A stretch of DNA of 64,000 nucleotides, taken from contig JACOEL010000003.1 in the NCBI GenBank assembly GCA_024998625.1, positions 1 to 64,000 on the forward strand, written 5' to 3'. Within the stretch, counting starts at the first letter, position 1, and each line of letters opens with the position of its first letter. Below are positions 12,917 to 60,279 of the stretch, in pieces. A model generated the notes under the pieces. That model made no database searches, was not told the origin of the DNA, and was given only the letters and a program-made list of their open reading frames with translations. This DNA is from Nitrospira sp. (GTDB lineage Bacteria; Nitrospirota; Nitrospiria; Nitrospirales; Nitrospiraceae). The position numbers were made by a program, and so were the translations under genes.

Positions 12917-13087
12917 ACGGTCACCTTATCCCATCCGCCATCTCTCCCCGTCAAGGGCGGCCCTCGCAAGCGGCAGGGTTCGAAGCAGACCGCTGGCCGC
13001 GCCAGGAGCCGCTGACGGGCGTTCGTTCGGTTGCTTTCACCTGTGCCCTATGGTAGCTTCGCCGACTCACGATGGGAGAGGTGTGCC

Positions 13088-14296
13088 ATGCCGACGGGTG
13101 AGTTACGTCTCAACGCCGAACAGTACTTGATGAACACCTACACGCGCCAGCCGATTTCGATCGTGCGGGGGCGTGGCTCGAAGGTCTACGACCTGGAAGG
13201 CCGGGAGTACATCGACTTTGTGGCCGGCATTGCGGTCAATCTCCTCGGTCATGGGCATCCGGACCTGGTACTGGCGGTTCAAAAGCAGGTGCAGCACCTG
13301 ATTCACACGTCGAACCTCTATTATACCGAGCCGCAGGTGCGCCTTGCTCAGACCCTGGTCGAACATTCGTTTGCGCAGAAAGTCTTTTTTTGTAACAGCG
13401 GCGCGGAAGCGAATGAAGCGGCGATTAAGTTGGCCCGAAAGTATTCGTATGACAAGTACGGGGCCGACCGCTACGAGATCGTCACGATGAAGAATTCTTT
13501 TCACGGGCGCACCATGGCTACCTTGACCGCCACCGGTCAGGAGAAGGTGCAGCATGGATTCGCCCCGCTCATGCCGGGGTTTTCGTATGTGACGTTCAAC
13601 GATCTCTCGGAAGTCGAGCGCGCCATCACCCCGAAAACCGCCGCCGTCATGTTGGAGCCCATTCAGGCCGAAGGCGGAGTGCATGTGGCCGATCGGGGCT
13701 ATATGCAGGGCTTGCGCGATCTCTGCCGGGAGCGCGATGTGCTGCTGATTTTCGATGAAGTGCAAACCGGCATGGGCCGAACGGGCACGCTCTTTTGCTA
13801 CGAGCAGTTCGGTATGCAGCCGGACATCATGACCCTGGCGAAGGGGCTGGGCGGTGGTGTCCCGATCGGGGCCTGTTTGGCGACGGAAGCTGTGGCGCAT
13901 GCCTTTTCTCCTGGAACTCATGCCTCGACCTTTGGCGGCAATCCCCTGGCCTGTGCGGCCGGGTTGGCTGTATTGCGAGTCCTGTTGGACGGGAAAATTC
14001 TGGACCAGGGACGGCGTATGGGCGAGACGTTGGCCAAAGGGTTGGCCGTGCTGAAGGACCGGCATCGTTGCGTAAAGGAAGTGCGCGGCCTTGGTCTGCT
14101 CCAGGGCATGGAATTGGAGATCGACGGGAAGGCGGTTGTTGCCGATTGTCTGGCCCGCGGATTGTTGATCAACTGCACCGGCGATCGGGTTCTGCGCTTT
14201 GTTCCCCCACTCATCATCACGGAGCGCGAGATCGATCGCTTGCTGGTCGCGCTTGCGCAGGTGTTGAGTCAGCGAACTACATCAAGCCACCATTAA
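13088..14296 (+). CDS. argD: Acetylornithine aminotransferase
   Basis: This PLP enzyme converts N-acetylglutamate semialdehyde to N-acetylornithine and can double as the succinyl-DAP aminotransferase. The 402-residue product has the class-III signatures: FCNSGAEANEAAIK, SFHGRTMATL, IFDEVQTGMGRTG and the PLP lysine in TLAKGLGGGVPIGA, followed by GNPLACAAG. ATG 13088 is preceded by GGGAGAGG; the frame extends upstream to 13031 without a ribosome site. It opens a six-enzyme arginine/lysine gene run on the same strand. argB, argC and argJ are not in the window. Confidence 0.95.
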   Translation: MPTGELRLNAEQYLMNTYTRQPISIVRGRGSKVYDLEGREYIDFVAGIAVNLLGHGHPDLVLAVQKQVQHLIHTSNLYYTEPQVRLAQTLVEHSFAQKVFFCNSGAEANEAAIKLARKYSYDKYGADRYEIVTMKNSFHGRTMATLTATGQEKVQHGFAPLMPGFSYVTFNDLSEVERAITPKTAAVMLEPIQAEGGVHVADRGYMQGLRDLCRERDVLLIFDEVQTGMGRTGTLFCYEQFGMQPDIMTLAKGLGGGVPIGACLATEAVAHAFSPGTHASTFGGNPLACAAGLAVLRVLLDGKILDQGRRMGETLAKGLAVLKDRHRCVKEVRGLGLLQGMELEIDGKAVVADCLARGLLINCTGDRVLRFVPPLIITEREIDRLLVALAQVLSQRTTSSHH

Positions 14297-14312
14297 TCCT
14301 GTAGGGGCGCGT

Positions 14313-15293
14313 ATGTCGCGGCGTCCGCATCGGTCATCCTCCCGGGCCGGTCTCGGGAAAGATTTTCTGGAACTGCTCTCGATCCCCGTCGCAGAGCTCA
14401 CGGGGTTGTTGCGCCTGGCTGCGCAGCTGAAGGTGAAGCAGCGTCGCGGGGTGTCTCATCCTCTGCTGCAGGGCCGCATGTTGGGCCTATTATTTCAGAA
14501 GCCTTCGACCCGGACGCGGGTGTCGTTCGAGGCAGGGATGAATCAGCTCGGTGGCCAGGCGATGGTGTTGCCGATGGGCGATATCCAGTTGTCGCGTGGC
14601 GAGAGTGTCGCCGATACGGCGCATGTCCTGTCTCGGTATCTGGACGCAATTGTCCTGCGCACCTTTGACCACGGGATTGCCGAAGAATGGGCCCGCGAGG
14701 CGAGTATTCCCGTCATCAACGGGCTGACCGATTTGAATCACCCCTGCCAGGCCCTGTCCGACCTGTTGACTATCCAGGAAAAGAAGCGGCGGCTGAAAGG
14801 CATCAAGATCGCGTATGTCGGCGACGGCAACAACGTGACGAATTCTCTGATCGAGGCGGCGGCGAAGATGGGGATGACGATCGCCGTCGGTTGCCCGCCC
14901 GGCTATCAGCCGGACCGGGGCATTGTGGATCGAGCCCGGGAGGAAGCCCGGCAGACCGGTGCGGTGATTGAAATCGGCGCCGATCCGTTGGTGGCCGTGA
15001 AAGATGCGGATGTGGTGTATACCGACGTCTGGATCAGCATGGGGCAAGAGCGGGAGCAGGCCAAGCGTCTCAAGACCCTGGCTCCCTATCAGCTCAATGC
15101 GCGACTACTGAAATGCGCGAAGCCGGATGCGCTGGTCATGCATTGTCTGCCGGCCCATCGCGGCGAGGAAATCAGTGCCGAGGTGCTGGATGGACCGCAG
15201 TCGGTGGTATTCGATCAAGCCGAGAACCGATTGCACATGCAGAAGGCCATTCTAGTCAGGCTCCTCGGAAAGAAACCTGCACGGAGTACGTAA
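14313..15293 (+). CDS. argF: Ornithine carbamoyltransferase
   Basis: It joins carbamoyl phosphate to ornithine to give citrulline. The 326-residue protein has the carbamoyl-phosphate site STRTRVSFE at about residue 65, HPCQALSDLLT for ornithine/carbamoyl binding, and the catalytic HCLPAHRGEE near the C-terminus. The first 15-20 residues are a basic, Ser/Arg-rich extension. It follows argD by 16 bases and precedes argG by 15, so one transcript is likely. Confidence 0.96.
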   Translation: MSRRPHRSSSRAGLGKDFLELLSIPVAELTGLLRLAAQLKVKQRRGVSHPLLQGRMLGLLFQKPSTRTRVSFEAGMNQLGGQAMVLPMGDIQLSRGESVADTAHVLSRYLDAIVLRTFDHGIAEEWAREASIPVINGLTDLNHPCQALSDLLTIQEKKRRLKGIKIAYVGDGNNVTNSLIEAAAKMGMTIAVGCPPGYQPDRGIVDRAREEARQTGAVIEIGADPLVAVKDADVVYTDVWISMGQEREQAKRLKTLAPYQLNARLLKCAKPDALVMHCLPAHRGEEISAEVLDGPQSVVFDQAENRLHMQKAILVRLLGKKPARST

Positions 15294-15308
15294 GTGAAAG
15301 GGAGTCGT

Positions 15309-16526
15309 ATGAGCCGGTCATCGTACAAGAAAGTGGTATTGGCCTATTCGGGGGGCCTGGACACGTCGGTAATTCTGAAGTGGCTGGAAGAGGTCTATGG
15401 CTGCGAAGTCATCGCGTTTTGCGCCGACTTGGGGCAGGGCGAGGATCTGAAGGCCATCAAAAAGAAGGCGCAGTCCCTGGGCGTGAAAAAGGTCTACGTG
15501 GAGGATCTCCGCGAGGTGTTCGTGAAGGACCATGTGTTCCCCATGTTGCGCGGGAATGCGATCTATGAAGGTAGCTACCTGCTGGGCACGTCGATCGCTC
15601 GTCCGCTGATCGCGCGGCGCCAAATTGAAATTGCGGCCGATGAAGGCGCCGAGGCGGTCTGTCACGGCGCGACCGGCAAGGGTAACGATCAGGTCCGTTT
15701 CGAGTTGACCTACATGGCGCTGCATCCGCAGATCAAGATCATTGCGCCCTGGCGTGAATGGACCATGCGCTCGCGTCGTGAGTTGATCGAGTATGCGGAA
15801 AAGCACGGCATTCCGGTCACGGCCACGAAGGCGAAACCCTACAGCATGGACATGAACCTGTTTCACACGAGTTATGAGGGCGGCATTCTGGAGGATCCCT
15901 GGAAGGCCCCGCCCGAAGAGATCTTCGTGATGTCGGTCTCGCCGGAGCGGGCGCCGAACAAGGCCCGGGAAGTCGAGATCGAGTATGTGGCGGGTAACCC
16001 GGTGGCGGTGGACGGCAAGAAGATGAGCCCGGCCTCCTTGCTGGCCCATCTCAATAAATTGGGCGGTGAGCATGGTGTCGGTCGTGTCGATCTGGTCGAA
16101 AACCGCTATGTCGGGATGAAATCGCGCGGAGTGTACGAAACGCCCGGCGGCACGATTTTGCATGCGGCCCATCGAGGCCTGGAGTCACTCACGATGGACC
16201 GGGAAGTGCTGCATCTGCGGGATAGTCTGATCCCCCGCTATGCCGAGCTCATTTACTACGGATACTGGTATGCTCCGGAGCGGGAAATGCTCCAGGTGGC
16301 GCTCGATGAAGCCCAGCGGGATGTCACGGGCACCGTTCGAGTGAAGCTCTACAAAGGGAGCTGCACGGTGGTGGGGCGGAAATCTCCGCGCTCGCTCTAT
16401 CGGCTGGACATGGCGACGTTCGAAGAAGACGACGTGTATCGCCAGAAGGATGCGGAAGGGTTTATTCGTCTGAACGCGCTCCGGTTGGCGATTCGGGCCC
16501 AGCGCAAGAAGAGGTCGACGCGGTAA
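15309..16526 (+). CDS. argG: Argininosuccinate synthase
   Basis: It condenses citrulline and aspartate with ATP hydrolysis to AMP. The 405-residue protein has the PP-loop AYSGGLDTS at residues 12-20, [15 protein letters not shown] in the middle, and the citrulline/aspartate region [12 protein letters not shown] 15309 follows GGGAGTCGT; an in-frame ATG at 15294 lies directly after the argF stop and is less likely. The stop overlaps the argH start (TAATG). Confidence 0.96.
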
Positions 16527-17980
16527 TGGCGAAGTCCCAATCTGCCGGAGCGCGTGCCCGCAAATCTGTCACTGTTTCGCAACGGTCCCGTCGTGCCTTG
16601 CCCAAGGGCAAGGCCTGGGGTGGCCGGTTTGCCGAACAAACCGACCGGCTGGTGGAGCAGTTCACCTCCTCCCTGGCCTGCGATCAGCGGCTCTATCCCT
16701 ATGACATTCAAGGCAGCATCGCCCATTGCAGGACGCTCGAACGCGCGGGGGTGCTCACCGCCCGTGAGTCGGCGCAGCTCGTACGGGGACTGCAATTCGT
16801 CAAGGTGGAGTTGGATGGCGGGCGGTTTCCCTTCTCACCGCAGGACGAAGATATCCATATGGCGATCGAGCGCCGGCTGACTGAGTTGATCGGCCCGTTG
16901 GGTGGAAAGCTGCACACGGGTCGAAGCCGCAACGATCAGGTGGCACTGGATCTGCGTCTATTTTTGCGCGATGTGCTTTCGACGTTGATGGGTCAATTGC
17001 AGGAATTCCGCCGAGTCCTCGTGGGGCAGGCCCGGGCGCACCTGGATGTCGTCATGCCCGGGTATACACATTTGCAGCGTGCTCAGCCGGTGCTGCTGGC
17101 GCATCATTTCCTGGCCTATGTAGAAATGTTCGACCGGGACCGGGGTCGGCTTCACGACTGTCGGCAACGGCTTAATGTGATGCCGCTGGGGTCGGGGGCG
17201 TTGGCGGGATCGAACTACCCGGTCGACCGTCGGTATACAGCGGCACTGCTGGAATTCCCGGCGGTGACCCAGAATAGCCTCGACGCCGTCTCGGATCGTG
17301 ATGCGGTGGTGGAGACACTCAGTGCCTTGTCGCTGATCATGATGCACCTCTCACGCTTGAGCGACGAATTGATTCTCTGGGCGTCGCAGGAATTTCGTTA
17401 CGTGGATTTGCCCGATACCTTCTGCACCGGCAGCAGCATGATGCCGCAAAAGAAGAATCCGGACGTGCCGGAGTTGGTGCGTGGGAAAACGGGTCGTGTC
17501 TATGGGCACTTGATGGGTACTCTGACGCTGCTCAAGGGATTGCCCCTGAGTTACAATCGTGACCTTCAGGAAGATAAAGAAGCGTTGTTCGACGCCGTGG
17601 ATACGACGGGGCAATCGCTGGCGCTTTGCACGGAGTTGATCCGGAGGCTGGTCGTCAATAAGGCCGTCCTGGCCGAAGCGGCCGAAGGTGGCGGGATGCT
17701 GGCGACGGAGCTGGCTGATTACCTTGTGACGAGAGGGGTCCCGTTCCGGGAGGCCCATTCCATTACCGGCCAGATTGTGCGATTCTCGCTCGAGCAGCAT
17801 CGGCCCCTTCAGCAGTTGACCTTGAAAGACTTGCGAGGCTTCTCCGCCCATTTTGGTGAGGACGTCCTGAGTTGCCTCACCGTGCGGGGCGCCATCGATC
17901 GGAAGGGTCAGATCGGCGGCACGGCAAGACGGCGTGTGGAGGCGCGCATCAAGGAGCTTGAGAAGGCGTTGAAGGGATGA
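16526..17980 (+). CDS. argH: Argininosuccinate lyase
   Basis: It cleaves argininosuccinate to arginine and fumarate. The 484 residues contain the fumarase/aspartase-superfamily signature GSSMMPQKKNPD, with HTGRSRNDQVALDLR and GYTHLQRAQPVLLAHH. A basic leader of about 28 residues (Ser/Arg/Lys-rich) precedes the conserved KAWGGRF; it could be an unusual extension, or translation could start inside. Start and stop overlap both neighbours (TAATG with argG, ATGA with the lipoprotein gene), so translation is coupled. Confidence 0.96.
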   Translation: MAKSQSAGARARKSVTVSQRSRRALPKGKAWGGRFAEQTDRLVEQFTSSLACDQRLYPYDIQGSIAHCRTLERAGVLTARESAQLVRGLQFVKVELDGGRFPFSPQDEDIHMAIERRLTELIGPLGGKLHTGRSRNDQVALDLRLFLRDVLSTLMGQLQEFRRVLVGQARAHLDVVMPGYTHLQRAQPVLLAHHFLAYVEMFDRDRGRLHDCRQRLNVMPLGSGALAGSNYPVDRRYTAALLEFPAVTQNSLDAVSDRDAVVETLSALSLIMMHLSRLSDELILWASQEFRYVDLPDTFCTGSSMMPQKKNPDVPELVRGKTGRVYGHLMGTLTLLKGLPLSYNRDLQEDKEALFDAVDTTGQSLALCTELIRRLVVNKAVLAEAAEGGGMLATELADYLVTRGVPFREAHSITGQIVRFSLEQHRPLQQLTLKDLRGFSAHFGEDVLSCLTVRGAIDRKGQIGGTARRRVEARIKELEKALKG

Positions 17981-53649: not shown

Positions 53650-54894
53650 ATGACCGCATCGCAAGAAACCGTTTTCCTGCAGGGCCACATTATCGATTCG
53701 TTGATTCTGGCCAAAGTTCTGGACACGATCCTGATGATGGGCGGTACCTTCGATCTGCAGGACGTCAAGATCGGTGCGACCAGGGAGGCCTCCTCCCAGG
53801 CGCGGATTGTGGTGCAAGCCCCGTCCGGCCGCCTGTTGGCCGAGATTCTCAGGGCCATCCAACCGCACGGTGCCGCCATTGAGCGGGAAGCGGACTGTCG
53901 TTTCGAGCCGGCACCGGCTCCGGGAGTGTTTCCTGAACAGTTCTATGCGACGACCCATTTACCGACCCAGATTCGTCTGGATGGCGAGTGGGTGGAGGTA
54001 GAGGGCATGGAAATGGACCTTGGCATTTGTGTCGATCCGGCCAAGGCCCACGCCAGGACTGTTCCCATGGGGAGGGTGACGGCCGGCGACTTGATCGTGA
54101 CCGGTCGGGAGGGAATCAGGGTCACACCCCTCGCTCGCCCGGTCGAGCGTGACGTATTCGGATTTATGGAGTCCGTGGTGTCGTCGGAGCGGCCGCATCA
54201 CCCTGTTATTGCCGACATTGCTCAGCGCATGCAGAAGTTGCGCGAATGGTACCGACAGGGGCGTGCCGGGGCCAAGGTGCTCTTTGCCGGTGGCCCGGCG
54301 ATCGTGCACGCCGGGGGGCGAGAGGCCCTGGCCTGGTTGATCGAGTCCGGGTACATACAGATCTTGTTCTGCGGCAATGCCTTGGCTGCGCACGATATGG
54401 AAGCCACGCTCTACGGCACGTCGCTCGGGTATGGGCTGACGGCCGGCCGTTCCGTGCCGCACGGGCATGAGCATCACCTGCGCACCATCAATCGCATTCG
54501 TACCATCGGCAGCATCGAGCAGGCGGTGCGGTCGGGCGTCATCACCGGCGGAATCATGGCCGCCTGCGTGCAATGCGATGTGAGGGTGGTGATAGCCGGC
54601 ACCATTCGCGACGATGGGCCGCTACCTGGGGTGCTGACGGACTCCATGGCGGCGCAGCAGGCCATGCGGGCGGAAATTCCCGGAGTCGGACTGGCGCTGT
54701 TGATCGCCTCCACACTTCATGCCATTGCCACTGGAAACCTGTTGCCGGCTACTGTGCCCACGGTCTGCGTCGATGTGAATCCGGCGGTGCCGACGAAATT
54801 GGCCGACCGCGGCAGTTTCCAAGCCGTCGGCCTGGTCATGGATGCCGCCTCCTTTCTCGCAGAGCTCGCGCGTGAACTCGGGTGGCGTCCATGA
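53650..54894 (+). CDS. Ornithine cyclodeaminase-type LOR/SDH domain protein (TIGR00300 family)
   Basis: The 414-residue protein matches the stand-alone LOR/SDH-domain family. In some cyanobacteria this module is the C-terminal half of AgrE, where it turns ornithine into proline and ammonia. Visible features are the DSLILAKVLDTILMMGG helix, EMDLGICVDP, and an NAD-binding region with VLFAGGPAIVHAGGREA and GITGGIM-type Gly-rich turns. ATG 53650 has AGAGG seven bases upstream. The stop overlaps the amidinotransferase start by ATGA. Joint function with that gene is inferred from the fused relatives. Confidence 0.82.
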   Translation: MTASQETVFLQGHIIDSLILAKVLDTILMMGGTFDLQDVKIGATREASSQARIVVQAPSGRLLAEILRAIQPHGAAIEREADCRFEPAPAPGVFPEQFYATTHLPTQIRLDGEWVEVEGMEMDLGICVDPAKAHARTVPMGRVTAGDLIVTGREGIRVTPLARPVERDVFGFMESVVSSERPHHPVIADIAQRMQKLREWYRQGRAGAKVLFAGGPAIVHAGGREALAWLIESGYIQILFCGNALAAHDMEATLYGTSLGYGLTAGRSVPHGHEHHLRTINRIRTIGSIEQAVRSGVITGGIMAACVQCDVRVVIAGTIRDDGPLPGVLTDSMAAQQAMRAEIPGVGLALLIASTLHAIATGNLLPATVPTVCVDVNPAVPTKLADRGSFQAVGLVMDAASFLAELARELGWRP

Positions 54895-55691
54895 GTCGCC
54901 TGCTCGTGTGCCCTCCCGATTATTTTCAGATCGATTACGAGATCAATCCCTGGATGCGACGGGAAAACGGTGTGGATCCGGCGCGTGCCGTCCGGCAATG
55001 GCAGGCGTTGATAACCGTGCTGGAGCAGGATGTCGGTGTCGGGATCGAGCGGATGCAGCCTGTTCAGGGGCTGCCGGATCTGGTGTTTACGGCCAATGCG
55101 GGAGTCGTCGTCGGTCGTCGCGCGGTGGTGAGCCGTTTTCGCTACTCGGAGCGGCAGCGGGAGGAAGCACACTTTTCGCGATGGTTCCGTGAGCGCGGAT
55201 ATGAAGTATTGACGCTCGACCCGTCCCTGTATTTCGAAGGCGCCGGCGACCTGTTGGGATTTCCGGACGCCTGGTTCGGCGGCTATCGCCAACGGTCTGA
55301 TATCCGCGCGTTCCCGAAGTTAAGCGAGATATTTGAGCGGGAAATCATTCCGCTTGAGTTGATCGACAGCCGGTTCTACCATCTGGATACCTGCCTTTGT
55401 CCGCTCAGCGGAGGTGACCTGCTCTATCTCCCCTCGGCCTTCGATTCCTACGGCCTGGCCGCCATTGCGGAACGGGTCACGGAAGATCGTCGGCTCGCGG
55501 TGCCTGAAGAGGAAGCGCTCAGATTTGCCTGTAATGCGGTCTGCGTCGGCAAACAGGTTGTGATCCCGGTTGGTTGCCCTTGCACGACGAAGCTCCTGGA
55601 AGAGCGAGGCTATCGCACCCATCCCGTCCAACTGGACGAATTCATGAAGTCGGGCGGCGCAGCCAAATGCCTGACTCTCGCTCTGGATTAA
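54891..55691 (+). CDS. Amidinotransferase-fold hydrolase, likely arginine dihydrolase (ArgZ/AgrE-like)
   Basis: The 266-residue protein has the guanidine-hydrolase fold. Asn19 (YEINPWM) and Asn69 (FTANAG) sit where arginine dihydrolases carry the two key Asn residues that deiminases and DDAH lack. His is in FYHLDTCL and the nucleophile Cys260 in GGAAKCLTL, near the C-terminus. The likely reaction is arginine to ornithine, two NH3 and CO2. Translation overlaps the cyclodeaminase-type gene before it, so arginine to proline plus ammonia is a plausible route. Dimethylarginine hydrolysis is the main alternative. The TAA stop is contributed by the arm of repeat C. Confidence 0.8.
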   Translation: MSRLLVCPPDYFQIDYEINPWMRRENGVDPARAVRQWQALITVLEQDVGVGIERMQPVQGLPDLVFTANAGVVVGRRAVVSRFRYSERQREEAHFSRWFRERGYEVLTLDPSLYFEGAGDLLGFPDAWFGGYRQRSDIRAFPKLSEIFEREIIPLELIDSRFYHLDTCLCPLSGGDLLYLPSAFDSYGLAAIAERVTEDRRLAVPEEEALRFACNAVCVGKQVVIPVGCPCTTKLLEERGYRTHPVQLDEFMKSGGAAKCLTLALD

Positions 55692-55868
55692 CCCGGATTA
55701 TTCATGAATGCCGTTGCGAGGCGTTCGAGACGGAAGCCCGCCGAGGCTGCTCGCACGCGAGGCCGACGCAGGCGTACTGGCAGTCCGTGGAGGAGGCCGA
55801 ACGAGAACAGCCTCGCCGGGCGAGAGGATCGGATGCCGGAGCAGGTATTCATGAATAGTCCGGGTTAA
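55688..55868. repeat. Long intergenic palindrome with 22-bp terminal inverted repeats, copy C
   Basis: The 181-bp element is bounded by TTAACCCGGATTATTCATGA at 55688 and its complement ending at 55868, matching at 21 of 22 positions. Further complementary blocks follow inward (GCCGAGGCTGCTCGC against its mate at about 55806-55820). The middle (GGCGTACTGGCAGTCC then GTGGAGG) resembles the reverse complement of the cores of copies A and B. The first arm overlaps the stop codon of the upstream gene. Confidence 0.75.
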
Positions 55869-56502: not shown

Positions 56503-57528
56503 ATGGCGCAACCGGCCATCAAACATGTGGCAGTCATCGGCGCCGGGGCCTGGGGGACGGCGTTGGCCCGGCATCTGGCTGAAAAGCAGGTGCCCGTCTG
56601 TTTGTGGGCCCATGAGCCGGAAGTCGTCCAGGCGATCCAAACCCGGCGTGAAAACTCCGTGTATTTGCCTGGCGTGCTGCTTCCGCCGACCTTATCGGCA
56701 ACGAATGTGTTAGCCGATGCCATCGCTGGCGCTGATTGCCTGATTTTTGCGGTCCCCTCGCATGTGGCGAGAGCGGTGCTGAGCCGGATTGCAGGCATGC
56801 TGCCGCAGCCCATTCCGCTGATCAGTGCGACCAAGGGGATCGAAGAAGAGACGCTTGCGCTCGCCACGCAGGTCATGCATGCGGTGTTGCCTGCGCATAT
56901 GCAGGGGGCATTGTTGGTCTTGTCAGGGCCGAGTTTTGCCAGTGAGGTCAGCCGCGGGAAACCGACGGCGCTCTGTCTCGCCGGGCAGGATGCCGGCATG
57001 GTCAAGGCGATTCAGTCGCTGTTCATGACGCCGAACTTTCGCGTCTATGCGGACGATGACCTGATCGGCGTGCAGCTCGGCGGCGCCTTGAAAAACGTGA
57101 TGGCGCTGGCTGCCGGTGTCGTGGATGGGTTGGAACTCGGGCATAACGCCCGCGCCGCGCTCATTACCCGCGGCCTGGCTGAAATGATCAGGCTGGGTGT
57201 CACGATGGGCGCCGATCCACGGACCTTCTATGGCCTCTCAGGGGTCGGGGATCTCATTCTGACCTGCACCGGTCCCTTGAGCCGCAATCATTCGGTCGGG
57301 GTGCGGTTGGGTAAAGGCGAACGCTTGGAGGGGATTCTCGCGAGCATGCAGGCGGTGGCGGAAGGCGTGCGTACGGCGAAGGCGGCGCTGGGGCTCGCCC
57401 TGCGCTGTGGTGTGGATATGCCGATTGTGCAGGAAGTAAACGCGGTGCTCTTTGCCGGCAAGTCCTGTCGTCAGGCGGTCGGTGATCTCATGGAGCGCGA
57501 AGCCAAGGGGGAGAAGAGCCCGTCATGA
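56503..57528 (+). CDS. gpsA: Glycerol-3-phosphate dehydrogenase [NAD(P)+]
   Basis: It reduces dihydroxyacetone phosphate to sn-glycerol-3-phosphate for phospholipid synthesis. The 341-residue protein has GAGAWGTALARHLAEK, SATKGIEEETLALATQV, SGPSFASEV, the catalytic Lys in GGALKNVMALAAG, and GVGDLILTCTGPLSRN. GTGGAG lies seven bases before ATG 56503. The stop overlaps larB by ATGA. Confidence 0.96.
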   Translation: MAQPAIKHVAVIGAGAWGTALARHLAEKQVPVCLWAHEPEVVQAIQTRRENSVYLPGVLLPPTLSATNVLADAIAGADCLIFAVPSHVARAVLSRIAGMLPQPIPLISATKGIEEETLALATQVMHAVLPAHMQGALLVLSGPSFASEVSRGKPTALCLAGQDAGMVKAIQSLFMTPNFRVYADDDLIGVQLGGALKNVMALAAGVVDGLELGHNARAALITRGLAEMIRLGVTMGADPRTFYGLSGVGDLILTCTGPLSRNHSVGVRLGKGERLEGILASMQAVAEGVRTAKAALGLALRCGVDMPIVQEVNAVLFAGKSCRQAVGDLMEREAKGEKSPS

Positions 57529-58277
57529 ATCAGGACCAGCTCCAGGCGTTGCTCACAAAGGTTCAGCAGGGCGCTCTTGCGGTGCCGGATGCGCTTCACC
57601 GGTTACGCACCTTGCCCTATGAAAACTTGGGATTTGCCTCGCTCGATCACCATCGCGCCCTGCGCCAGGGGTTTCCGGAAGTCATTTTTTGCGAAGGCAA
57701 GACGGTATCACAGGTGGTTGCCATCGCGAAGACGCTCTTGCGGAAGAACAAGGCCTTGTTGGCAACGCGGGTGGAACCTTCGGTCGCGCGGGCGCTGCTG
57801 CGCGTGAGCAAACGGGCGGTCTACCATGAAGCGGCGCGGGTCGTCGCCATTGCGCCACCCAAGTTAGTGCGGCGGGGGGCCGTGTTGATCGTGACCGCCG
57901 GCACCGCCGATATTCCCGTGGCGGAGGAAGCGCGGGTGACGGCCGATATCATGGGGAGCAAGACCGACACGTTGTACGATGTAGGAGTGGCCGGCTTGCA
58001 TCGTCTGCTGGGGCAGCAGGAGCGCTTGCATGACGCCCGGGCGCTCGTCGTGGTGGCCGGCATGGATGGCGTGCTTCCGAGCGTCGTCGGCGGACTGGTT
58101 CGGCAACCGGTGATTGCGGTGCCGACGAGCCGGGGCTACGGGGCACACTTCGGCGGGTTGGCCGCCTTGTTGACCATGTTGAATTCCTGCGCGGCCGGAG
58201 TTGGAGTGATGAACATCGACAACGGCTTCGGAGCCGGTTGCCTCGCGCATCGAATCAACATGGTCGGGGAAGCATAG
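57525..58277 (+). CDS. larB: Pyridinium-3,5-biscarboxylic acid mononucleotide synthase LarB
   Basis: LarB carboxylates and hydrolyses nicotinic acid adenine dinucleotide, the first step of the nickel-pincer cofactor of lactate racemase and related enzymes. The 250-residue protein has the PurE-like C-terminal core: VVAGMDGVLPSVVGGLV, PTSRGYGAHFGG and NSCAAGVGVMNIDNGFGA with the conserved Cys. It is translationally coupled to gpsA. larC lies about 800 bases downstream past an unrelated gene; larA and larE are not in the window. Confidence 0.92.
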   Translation: MNQDQLQALLTKVQQGALAVPDALHRLRTLPYENLGFASLDHHRALRQGFPEVIFCEGKTVSQVVAIAKTLLRKNKALLATRVEPSVARALLRVSKRAVYHEAARVVAIAPPKLVRRGAVLIVTAGTADIPVAEEARVTADIMGSKTDTLYDVGVAGLHRLLGQQERLHDARALVVVAGMDGVLPSVVGGLVRQPVIAVPTSRGYGAHFGGLAALLTMLNSCAAGVGVMNIDNGFGAGCLAHRINMVGEA

Positions 58278-59070: not shown

Positions 59071-60279
59071 ATGGCCACACATCTTCATTTCGACTGTTTC
59101 TCCGGCATCAGCGGCGACATGACCTTGGGCGCGCTGGTCGATGCGGAATTGCCGTTTAAAGATCTCGTACGCGGCCTTGCCTCATTGCGGATCGAAGGGT
59201 TTCGTCTGACGCGGAAGCGGGTCGAACGCGGGGCGCTTACGGCGACCAAAGTCGATGTGCTGATCGAGAAGGGTTTTCGCGCGCCGTTAACGCTGGCGCA
59301 GATCAAACGGATTCTACTTAAGAGTAGCCTGCCGCCGGTGGTAAAGGAACGGAGTCAGGCCGTGTTCGATGTGCTGGCCGCCGCAGAGGGCAAGGCCCAT
59401 GGCGTCGAACCGTCGCATGTGCATTTCCATGAAGTCGGCGTGATCGATTCGTTTGTCGATGTGGTGGGCGGGGTCCTGGGACTCCATCTCCTGGGGGTGC
59501 AGCGTGTGACGGCCTCCGCGATCAATGTGGGATCGGGTACCCTCATGTCGGCACATGGATCCTTGCCGGTGCCGGGACCGGCCGTGGCTGCGCTGGCGGT
59601 CGGCCTGCCCGTTTATGCCGAGGGGCCGCAGCGGGAACTGGCGACTCCGACCGGGGTGGCCTTATTACGCACCCTGGCGACAGAATTCGGTCGCTTGCCT
59701 CCTATGCAGGTGCGCCGGGTGGGGTATGGGGCGGGAACAGCCGATCCTTCGCATTGGTCGAACGTATTACGTGTGTTCGTCGGTGAAGAACCGGCCGCCG
59801 CAGGTTCGGTGGAAACTATCGTTGAGCTTCAGACAAACATCGACGATTTGAATCCGCAGGTCTACGAGAGCGTCTTCGATCGGGTATTTGCTGCGGGAGC
59901 CGTGGATGCGACCTTGGCACCGGTCACCATGAAAAAGGGCCGGCCCGGGAATGTGCTCTCCGTGCTCGCTCCCCCGGAGAAGGTGGAAGCCGTGTTGGCG
60001 GTGTTGTTTGCCGACACGACGGCGCTCGGGGTCAGGACCCATGCGGTACAGCGACGGGTGTTGCCACGACGATTCGTGCCGGTACGGGTTCAGGGCCACG
60101 AGGTCTCCATCAAGGTGGCGGACTCCCGACCGGGTCGGAGCAAAGCCGCTCCGGAGTATGAGGATTGCAAACGGATTGCCGAACAGAGCGGACGTCCGGT
60201 GAAAGACATTTTGGAAGAGGCTATGCAGGCCTATCGGCGCACGGCAGGACGTGGGAATAAAGAAAAAGGGAGCAGGTGA
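59071..60279 (+). CDS. larC: Nickel insertion protein LarC
   Basis: LarC inserts nickel into the pincer cofactor using CTP. The 402-residue protein begins FDCFSGISGDMTLGALVDAE and has HVHFHEVGVIDSFVDVVG, PTGVALLRTL, and a C-terminal domain with LQTNIDDLNPQVYE and VTMKKGRPGNVLSVL, together spanning both LarC1 and LarC2. In Lactobacillus these halves are joined by a programmed frameshift; here they lie in one frame. ATG 59071 is preceded by CAGGAG. Confidence 0.93.
   Translation: MATHLHFDCFSGISGDMTLGALVDAELPFKDLVRGLASLRIEGFRLTRKRVERGALTATKVDVLIEKGFRAPLTLAQIKRILLKSSLPPVVKERSQAVFDVLAAAEGKAHGVEPSHVHFHEVGVIDSFVDVVGGVLGLHLLGVQRVTASAINVGSGTLMSAHGSLPVPGPAVAALAVGLPVYAEGPQRELATPTGVALLRTLATEFGRLPPMQVRRVGYGAGTADPSHWSNVLRVFVGEEPAAAGSVETIVELQTNIDDLNPQVYESVFDRVFAAGAVDATLAPVTMKKGRPGNVLSVLAPPEKVEAVLAVLFADTTALGVRTHAVQRRVLPRRFVPVRVQGHEVSIKVADSRPGRSKAAPEYEDCKRIAEQSGRPVKDILEEAMQAYRRTAGRGNKEKGSR

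Follow-up and report, generated by a model that had tools for sequence, protein, structure and literature searches.

Two overlapping genes of a Nitrospira-like bacterium very probably convert arginine to proline and ammonia, judging by sequence comparison, through a stand-alone homologue of the cyanobacterial arginine dihydrolase and an ornithine cyclodeaminase of the TIGR00300 type encoded directly upstream of it. In the reading that we favor with reasonable confidence, the two proteins form a split pair that would work like cyanobacterial ArgZ/AgrE, the cyclodeaminase would employ the nickel-pincer nucleotide (NPN) as cofactor, and the resulting proline would be passed via PutA to glutamate. 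The genes lie in a window of 64,000 nucleotides, by which we mean the whole stretch of Nitrospira sp. DNA analyzed here (contig JACOEL010000003.1, positions 1 to 64,000), and the features on which the argument draws are as follows:

13031..17980, + strand: argD-argF-argG-argH, arginine biosynthesis, a separate cluster ~36 kb away (NCBIfam models, over cut-off)
53650..54894, + strand: ORF1, predicted ornithine cyclodeaminase, TIGR00300 / ArgZ-like C-terminal type, 414 aa (TIGR00300, Pfam and PDB matches)
54891..55691, + strand: ORF2, stand-alone arginine dihydrolase homologue, 266 aa (NF052232, PDB ArgZ entries, conserved residues)
56506..57528, + strand: gpsA, glycerol-3-phosphate dehydrogenase, a neighbor outside the pathway (NF000942, 427.9 bits)
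57525..58277, + strand: larB, first enzyme of NPN synthesis (NF033503, 285.6 bits, cut-off 175)
59071..60279, + strand: larC, NPN-synthesis nickel insertase (TIGR00299, 191.5 bits, and NF052512, 136.1 bits, both over cut-off)

ORF1 is a member of TIGR00300, which it matches over its full length (residues 7-410) with 453.7 bits against the NCBIfam cut-off of 410.8; three Pfam domains, Saccharop_dh_N, ArgZ-like_C_1st and ArgZ-like_C_2nd, extend across the whole protein, and its relatives in the PDB are 3c2q, 6lrf and 6juy. The family carries the title 'ornithine cyclodeaminase, nickel-pincer nucleotide-dependent' in NCBIfam release 20.0 (June 2026), and the protein is predicted to convert ornithine to proline and ammonia. 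As a stand-alone enzyme with a full-length match over the cut-off, ORF1 resembles the archaeal TIGR00300 proteins of Methanocaldococcus jannaschii and Haloferax volcanii (solved relative 3c2q), two organisms in which larB and larE are also matched, as they are in the window's genome. Unlike these, it is strictly paired with a dihydrolase and accompanied by both ProC and PutA, and is thus more likely to serve catabolism.

For ORF2 we claim likeness to ArgZ rather than proven membership of the equivalog family, since its 283.8 bits against the Arg_dihydro model NF052232 stay below the curated cut-off of 450, which is reached by no copy in the 295 Nitrospirota genomes surveyed. Among solved structures it comes closest to the ArgZ (Sll1336) entries 6jv0, 6juz and 6juy, with an E value of 1.9e-72 for 6jv0, and the first-pass annotation was right to point to asparagine at two key positions and a C-terminal cysteine: N19, N69 and C260 align with ArgZ Asn22, Asn71 and Cys264, and H164 is the equivalent of His168. 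At the position matching N69, 6juz differs from 6jv0 by an Asn-to-Ser change. Among 152 ORF2 relatives, which span the range from Nitrospirota to the fused cyanobacterial ArgZ and include some large contigs classed as viral, N19, D63, E116, H164, D166, N215 and C260 are invariant, and N69 is Asn in all but one, where it is Ser. We infer that ORF2 would work like ArgZ and cleave arginine to ornithine, CO2 and two NH3. The sequence matches to families and PDB entries are enough to fix the fold. Relatives of the dihydrolase also occur on IMG/VR contigs classed as viral (L068-L076), several of which are 145-459 kb long.

ORF2 belongs to the same guanidine-modifying superfamily as the dimethylarginine hydrolases (DDAHs) and arginine deiminases, with Cys-His-Glu catalysis, and its score against DDAH-Mtb NF045659 (233.7 bits, below the cut-off of 300) is just 50 bits under that for Arg_dihydro, both cut-offs being missed, so that a dimethylarginine hydrolase or a citrulline-forming deiminase has to be weighed against a dihydrolase. 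An Asp that holds the guanidinium group in deiminases, two positions after the catalytic His, is Lys in DDAHs (PMC11659421). In ORF2 it is Asp166, the last residue of an HLD motif (164-166) as found in deiminases, and not the Lys of DDAH. Against a deiminase, in turn, stands Asn69, which replaces an Asp: the position is presumably that of the second guanidinium-holding Asp of both deiminases and DDAHs, and is Asn in ArgZ too. With the full set of ArgZ catalytic residues in place and an ornithine-consuming enzyme as its strict partner, ORF2 is very unlikely to be either of the two.

The first-pass annotation had described separate frames that overlap by ATGA, with the cyclodeaminase first, and both ORFs are indeed found so, sharing the four bases at 54891-54894; the TIGR00300 and ArgZ-like domains of ORF1 and the proximity of ORF2 to ArgZ also bear out its view of the locus as a split counterpart of ArgZ/AgrE. 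The idea that the reversed order or the split is special to this genome finds no support, as separate genes with the cyclodeaminase first are the rule wherever a pair was seen outside Cyanobacteria. The survey of the pair across Nitrospirota that it had called for turned up 95 genomes, out of 295, with the pair in the same order; the cyclodeaminase is over the cut-off in 94 of them and lies in two pieces in G176, while a further genome, G187, holds a remnant. The dihydrolase is present in all 96 genomes with a cyclodeaminase or its remnant, such that the cyclodeaminase never occurs without it (95 of 95), and eight other genomes of the 295 have the dihydrolase and no cyclodeaminase; both genes are absent from 11 genomes of the two nearest families. 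Preservation of one order across 95 genomes is not a matter of chance, and the four-base overlap recurs in 36 of the 51 Nitrospirota loci read closely, a count in which some genomes figure twice.

The best 80 relatives in a wider collection belong to Planctomycetota, Verrucomicrobiota, Chloroflexota, Omnitrophota, Methylomirabilota, Nitrospinota, Myxococcota, Armatimonadota and other groups, a few being Nitrospirota: a cyclodeaminase lies upstream on the same strand in 47 and none is found within the locus in 33, with the opposite gene order and a fusion each seen in 0 of the 80. As the first-pass annotation had stated, the cyanobacterial form is a fusion with the dihydrolase first: all 31 matches in 88 Cyanobacteriota-group genomes sit in fused frames of 702-744 aa and the dihydrolase comes first in each of the 20 checked. 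Where a pair was seen, separate genes with the cyclodeaminase first are thus the usual arrangement, and the cyanobacterial fusion is the special case. In an unrooted quick tree supported by SH-aLRT only, the cyanobacterial cyclodeaminases form one long-branch clade that excludes all 65 split sequences. With the fused proteins in a single deep clade, this tree lends no support to the idea that a cyanobacterial fusion was recently transferred or split. Both modules are homologous to those of ArgZ/AgrE (Sll1336, Alr4995), with the same dihydrolase catalytic residues and cyclodeaminase domain make-up, but instead of the one polypeptide of the bifunctional ArgZ/AgrE model NF052231 the window has two ORFs, with the cyclodeaminase first and in a different deep clade.

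In the proposed route, Cys260 of ORF2 would attack the guanidinium group of arginine, aided by His164 and Glu116, and Asn19 and Asn69 would, by analogy with ArgZ, allow hydrolysis to reach ornithine, CO2 and two ammonia rather than citrulline. Through a hidden redox reaction with NPN made by LarB, LarE and LarC, ORF1 would turn the ornithine into proline and release one ammonia, for a predicted total of three ammonia between arginine and proline, and PutA would take the proline to glutamate. A path from arginine through proline to glutamate via AgrE and PutA is known from cyanobacteria (PMC8262935). ProC was found in 18 of 18 genomes tested, so that the pair is not needed for making proline, and a methanogen-like role in proline biosynthesis was set aside on these grounds. 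A PutA-sized protein of ~1000 aa with a proline dehydrogenase domain turned up in each of the 15 pair-bearing genomes tested, a set that includes G187 with its dihydrolase, and in one of the three tested that lack the pair; together with ProC, this makes the route look catabolic and directed towards glutamate.

The argD-argF-argG-argH genes that the first-pass annotation had placed in the same window are there, at 13031-17980, and their presence in the genome would allow an ornithine-ammonia cycle, formed with ArgF, ArgG and ArgH, to be the pair's main role, in which ammonia is spilled in preference to making proline. Several lineages have a dihydrolase with no cyclodeaminase nearby, and G187 has retained its dihydrolase after loss of the cyclodeaminase; it is in this genome that such a cycle is most plausible, and there it is a possibility. 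For the window's pair we consider it quite unlikely, as three observations favor a flow that continues to proline and glutamate: in Nitrospirota the two genes co-occur strictly, they often overlap, and PutA is found in the same genomes. An arginase-family protein was found as well and is probably an agmatinase; speA and speB occur in most Nitrospira, and a survey of organic nitrogen use in nitrifiers brings up arginine for polyamines only (PMC10753782).

Unmentioned in the first-pass annotation, larB and larC occupy, on the strand of the pair, the stretch 1.8-4.6 kb downstream of it, larB starting at 1.8 kb and larC at 3.4 kb; gpsA and a single minus-strand gene lie in between. The LarC1 and LarC2 parts are contained in one uninterrupted larC frame (59071-60279); in Lactobacillus larC is split into larC1 and larC2, which are joined by frameshifting. 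The larE gene of the same genome is found outside the window (G000:C17:84316-85083), and with larB, larC and larE all over their cut-offs the NPN synthesis set is complete. Relatives from the window's family share the arrangement of pair and lar genes (L056, L057, L058, L063, L066), and in the two sister-family loci read (L059, L060) larB is not near the pair. The cofactor synthesis genes are those of the larABCE system for lactate racemase LarA, but the nearby client is here the cyclodeaminase and not a LarA-like protein.

Across the 295 Nitrospirota genomes, larB and larE are both present in 95 of 95 with the cyclodeaminase. LarA was recognized by PF09861, which may miss distant LarA proteins, in just 24 of the 295 and was rejected as the sole reason for larB. 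Among genomes with neither LarA nor a protein of the GSU2086 family considered below, larB and larE accompany the cyclodeaminase in 12 of 12, as against seven of 45 genomes without a recognized client, 35 of which have neither gene (Fisher p 7e-8 for 12/12 versus 7/45, in a test that ignores relatedness and on a set in which some drafts are incomplete). Two genomes of genus g15 (G178, G257) keep larB and larE and have no match to the cyclodeaminase, LarA or GSU2086, which reflects either assembly gaps or a further client.

A single relative also ties the cyclodeaminase to the cofactor genes. In G187 (locus L049, G187:C54:28000-40000), truD, the dihydrolase, gpsA, the minus-strand gene, an antiporter gene and pdxA follow one another in the window's order, and three genes of the locus are gutted: the cyclodeaminase is reduced to its first ~20 and last ~70 codons, larB to its first ~25 and last ~10, and larC to its first few and last ~50. 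The dihydrolase is intact, with 73% identity to that of the window, as are gpsA and the other neighbors, and a genome-wide search of G187 found larB, larE and GSU2086 nowhere else. An artifact of a contig end was dismissed, the remnant lying inside a 53 kb contig between intact flanking genes; the case is one lineage, represented by one draft genome of ~140 contigs and 95% completeness. The cyclodeaminase and cofactor synthesis were thus lost together, and the dihydrolase, expected to do without NPN, stayed. The pattern of decay is itself unusual, with three genes that lost their middles and kept both ends among interleaved genes that remained whole.

Evidence that points both ways comes from nine of the 34 pair-bearing genomes reached via the wider collection in which an acceptable larB is absent, namely all six Verrucomicrobiota tested (L130, L135, L137, L146, L154, L155) and one each labeled Chloroflexi, Thermodesulfovibrionia and Armatimonadetes. 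In the latter three the absence may be due to incomplete genomes, and their cyclodeaminases have the standard residues except for Asn275 in the Chloroflexi one. The Verrucomicrobiota cyclodeaminases form one clade (unrooted tree), and most carry H220R, H248Y and H275N together with further changes at W114, S178, D322, N377, K383 and D386, sites that vary little or not at all where larB is present. H220 and H248 are retained in the basal L135, and all three histidines in the cyanobacterial fusions. As Asn275 is also found in the larB-bearing L091, H275 alone is not decisive, and the Verrucomicrobiota case as a whole amounts to one evolutionary event seen in draft genomes. Pairs without larB speak against a universal NPN dependence of TIGR00300, and the same pattern argues for H220, H248 and H275 as part of a cofactor site elsewhere; the Verrucomicrobiota protein is possibly a cofactor-free or altered enzyme. 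Assigning the larB-less cyclodeaminases to NF052526 instead was considered and discarded, TIGR00300 scoring higher in all.

These observations bear on whether the same enzyme pair could instead run with a cyclodeaminase that uses NAD+, with larB and larC as chance neighbors or in the service of GSU2086 or a LarA-like enzyme. The Verrucomicrobiota pairs without larB fit such a scheme, as do the LarA-like and GSU2086 proteins of the window's genome, which could themselves use NPN; AgrE was reportedly crystallized with NAD+, which is said to be present in its structures. The larB-less Verrucomicrobiota, however, are those substituted at H220, H248 and H275, and neither chance nor another client accounts well for larB and larE in all 12 genomes where the cyclodeaminase is the only recognized client or for the joint decay of cyclodeaminase, larB, larC and larE in G187. 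Since NCBIfam, too, names TIGR00300 as NPN-dependent, we regard an NAD+-only cyclodeaminase as unlikely and hold that ORF1 probably depends on NPN, on the combined grounds of co-occurrence, linkage, co-decay and the family name.

About 15% of genomes analyzed in an earlier study, many cyanobacteria among them, make NPN without LarA, and that study describes the protein using it there as still to be found (PMC11796402, mBio, December 2024). GSU2086 (NF052581), present in 234 of the 295 Nitrospirota genomes, is distantly related to the cyclodeaminase in its Rossmann part and has an HDxE motif in common with it (hhalign probability 93, E 3.5e-7). The family occurs in 136 of the 143 Nitrospirota genomes that contain larB and larE while lacking both the cyclodeaminase and LarA, which makes it a candidate second NPN enzyme; the copy in the window's genome lies outside the window (G000:C1:13311-14225, L064). 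We tentatively put forward, as a proposal with somewhat less than even chances, that the cyclodeaminase and GSU2086 belong to a class of NPN enzymes other than LarA, that H220, H248 and H275 form its nickel or cofactor site, and that the Verrucomicrobiota branch has lost the cofactor. If true, such a class would answer what uses NPN in makers of the cofactor that lack LarA.

The enzymes and their reactions are already known, and the NPN cofactor has already been named by NCBIfam; no paper in the literature searched links NPN to ornithine cyclodeaminase. What appears to be new is the linkage, the co-decay seen in one genome, the branch that lacks larB and has its histidines replaced, the wide spread of the split pair, and GSU2086 as a second candidate. 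Cofactor genes adjoining the enzyme, together with a relative in which both have decayed, make the connection between NPN and the cyclodeaminase directly testable, and the locus would link the breakdown of arginine in Nitrospira-like bacteria with nickel. The split arrangement spans many phyla.

Directly after the dihydrolase gene lies an inverted repeat (55691-55866), in which CCGGATTATTCATGAAT at 55693-55709 is followed by its inverted copy at 55847-55863; the repeat has no further copy within the window and may be a small mobile element or one that resembles a terminator.
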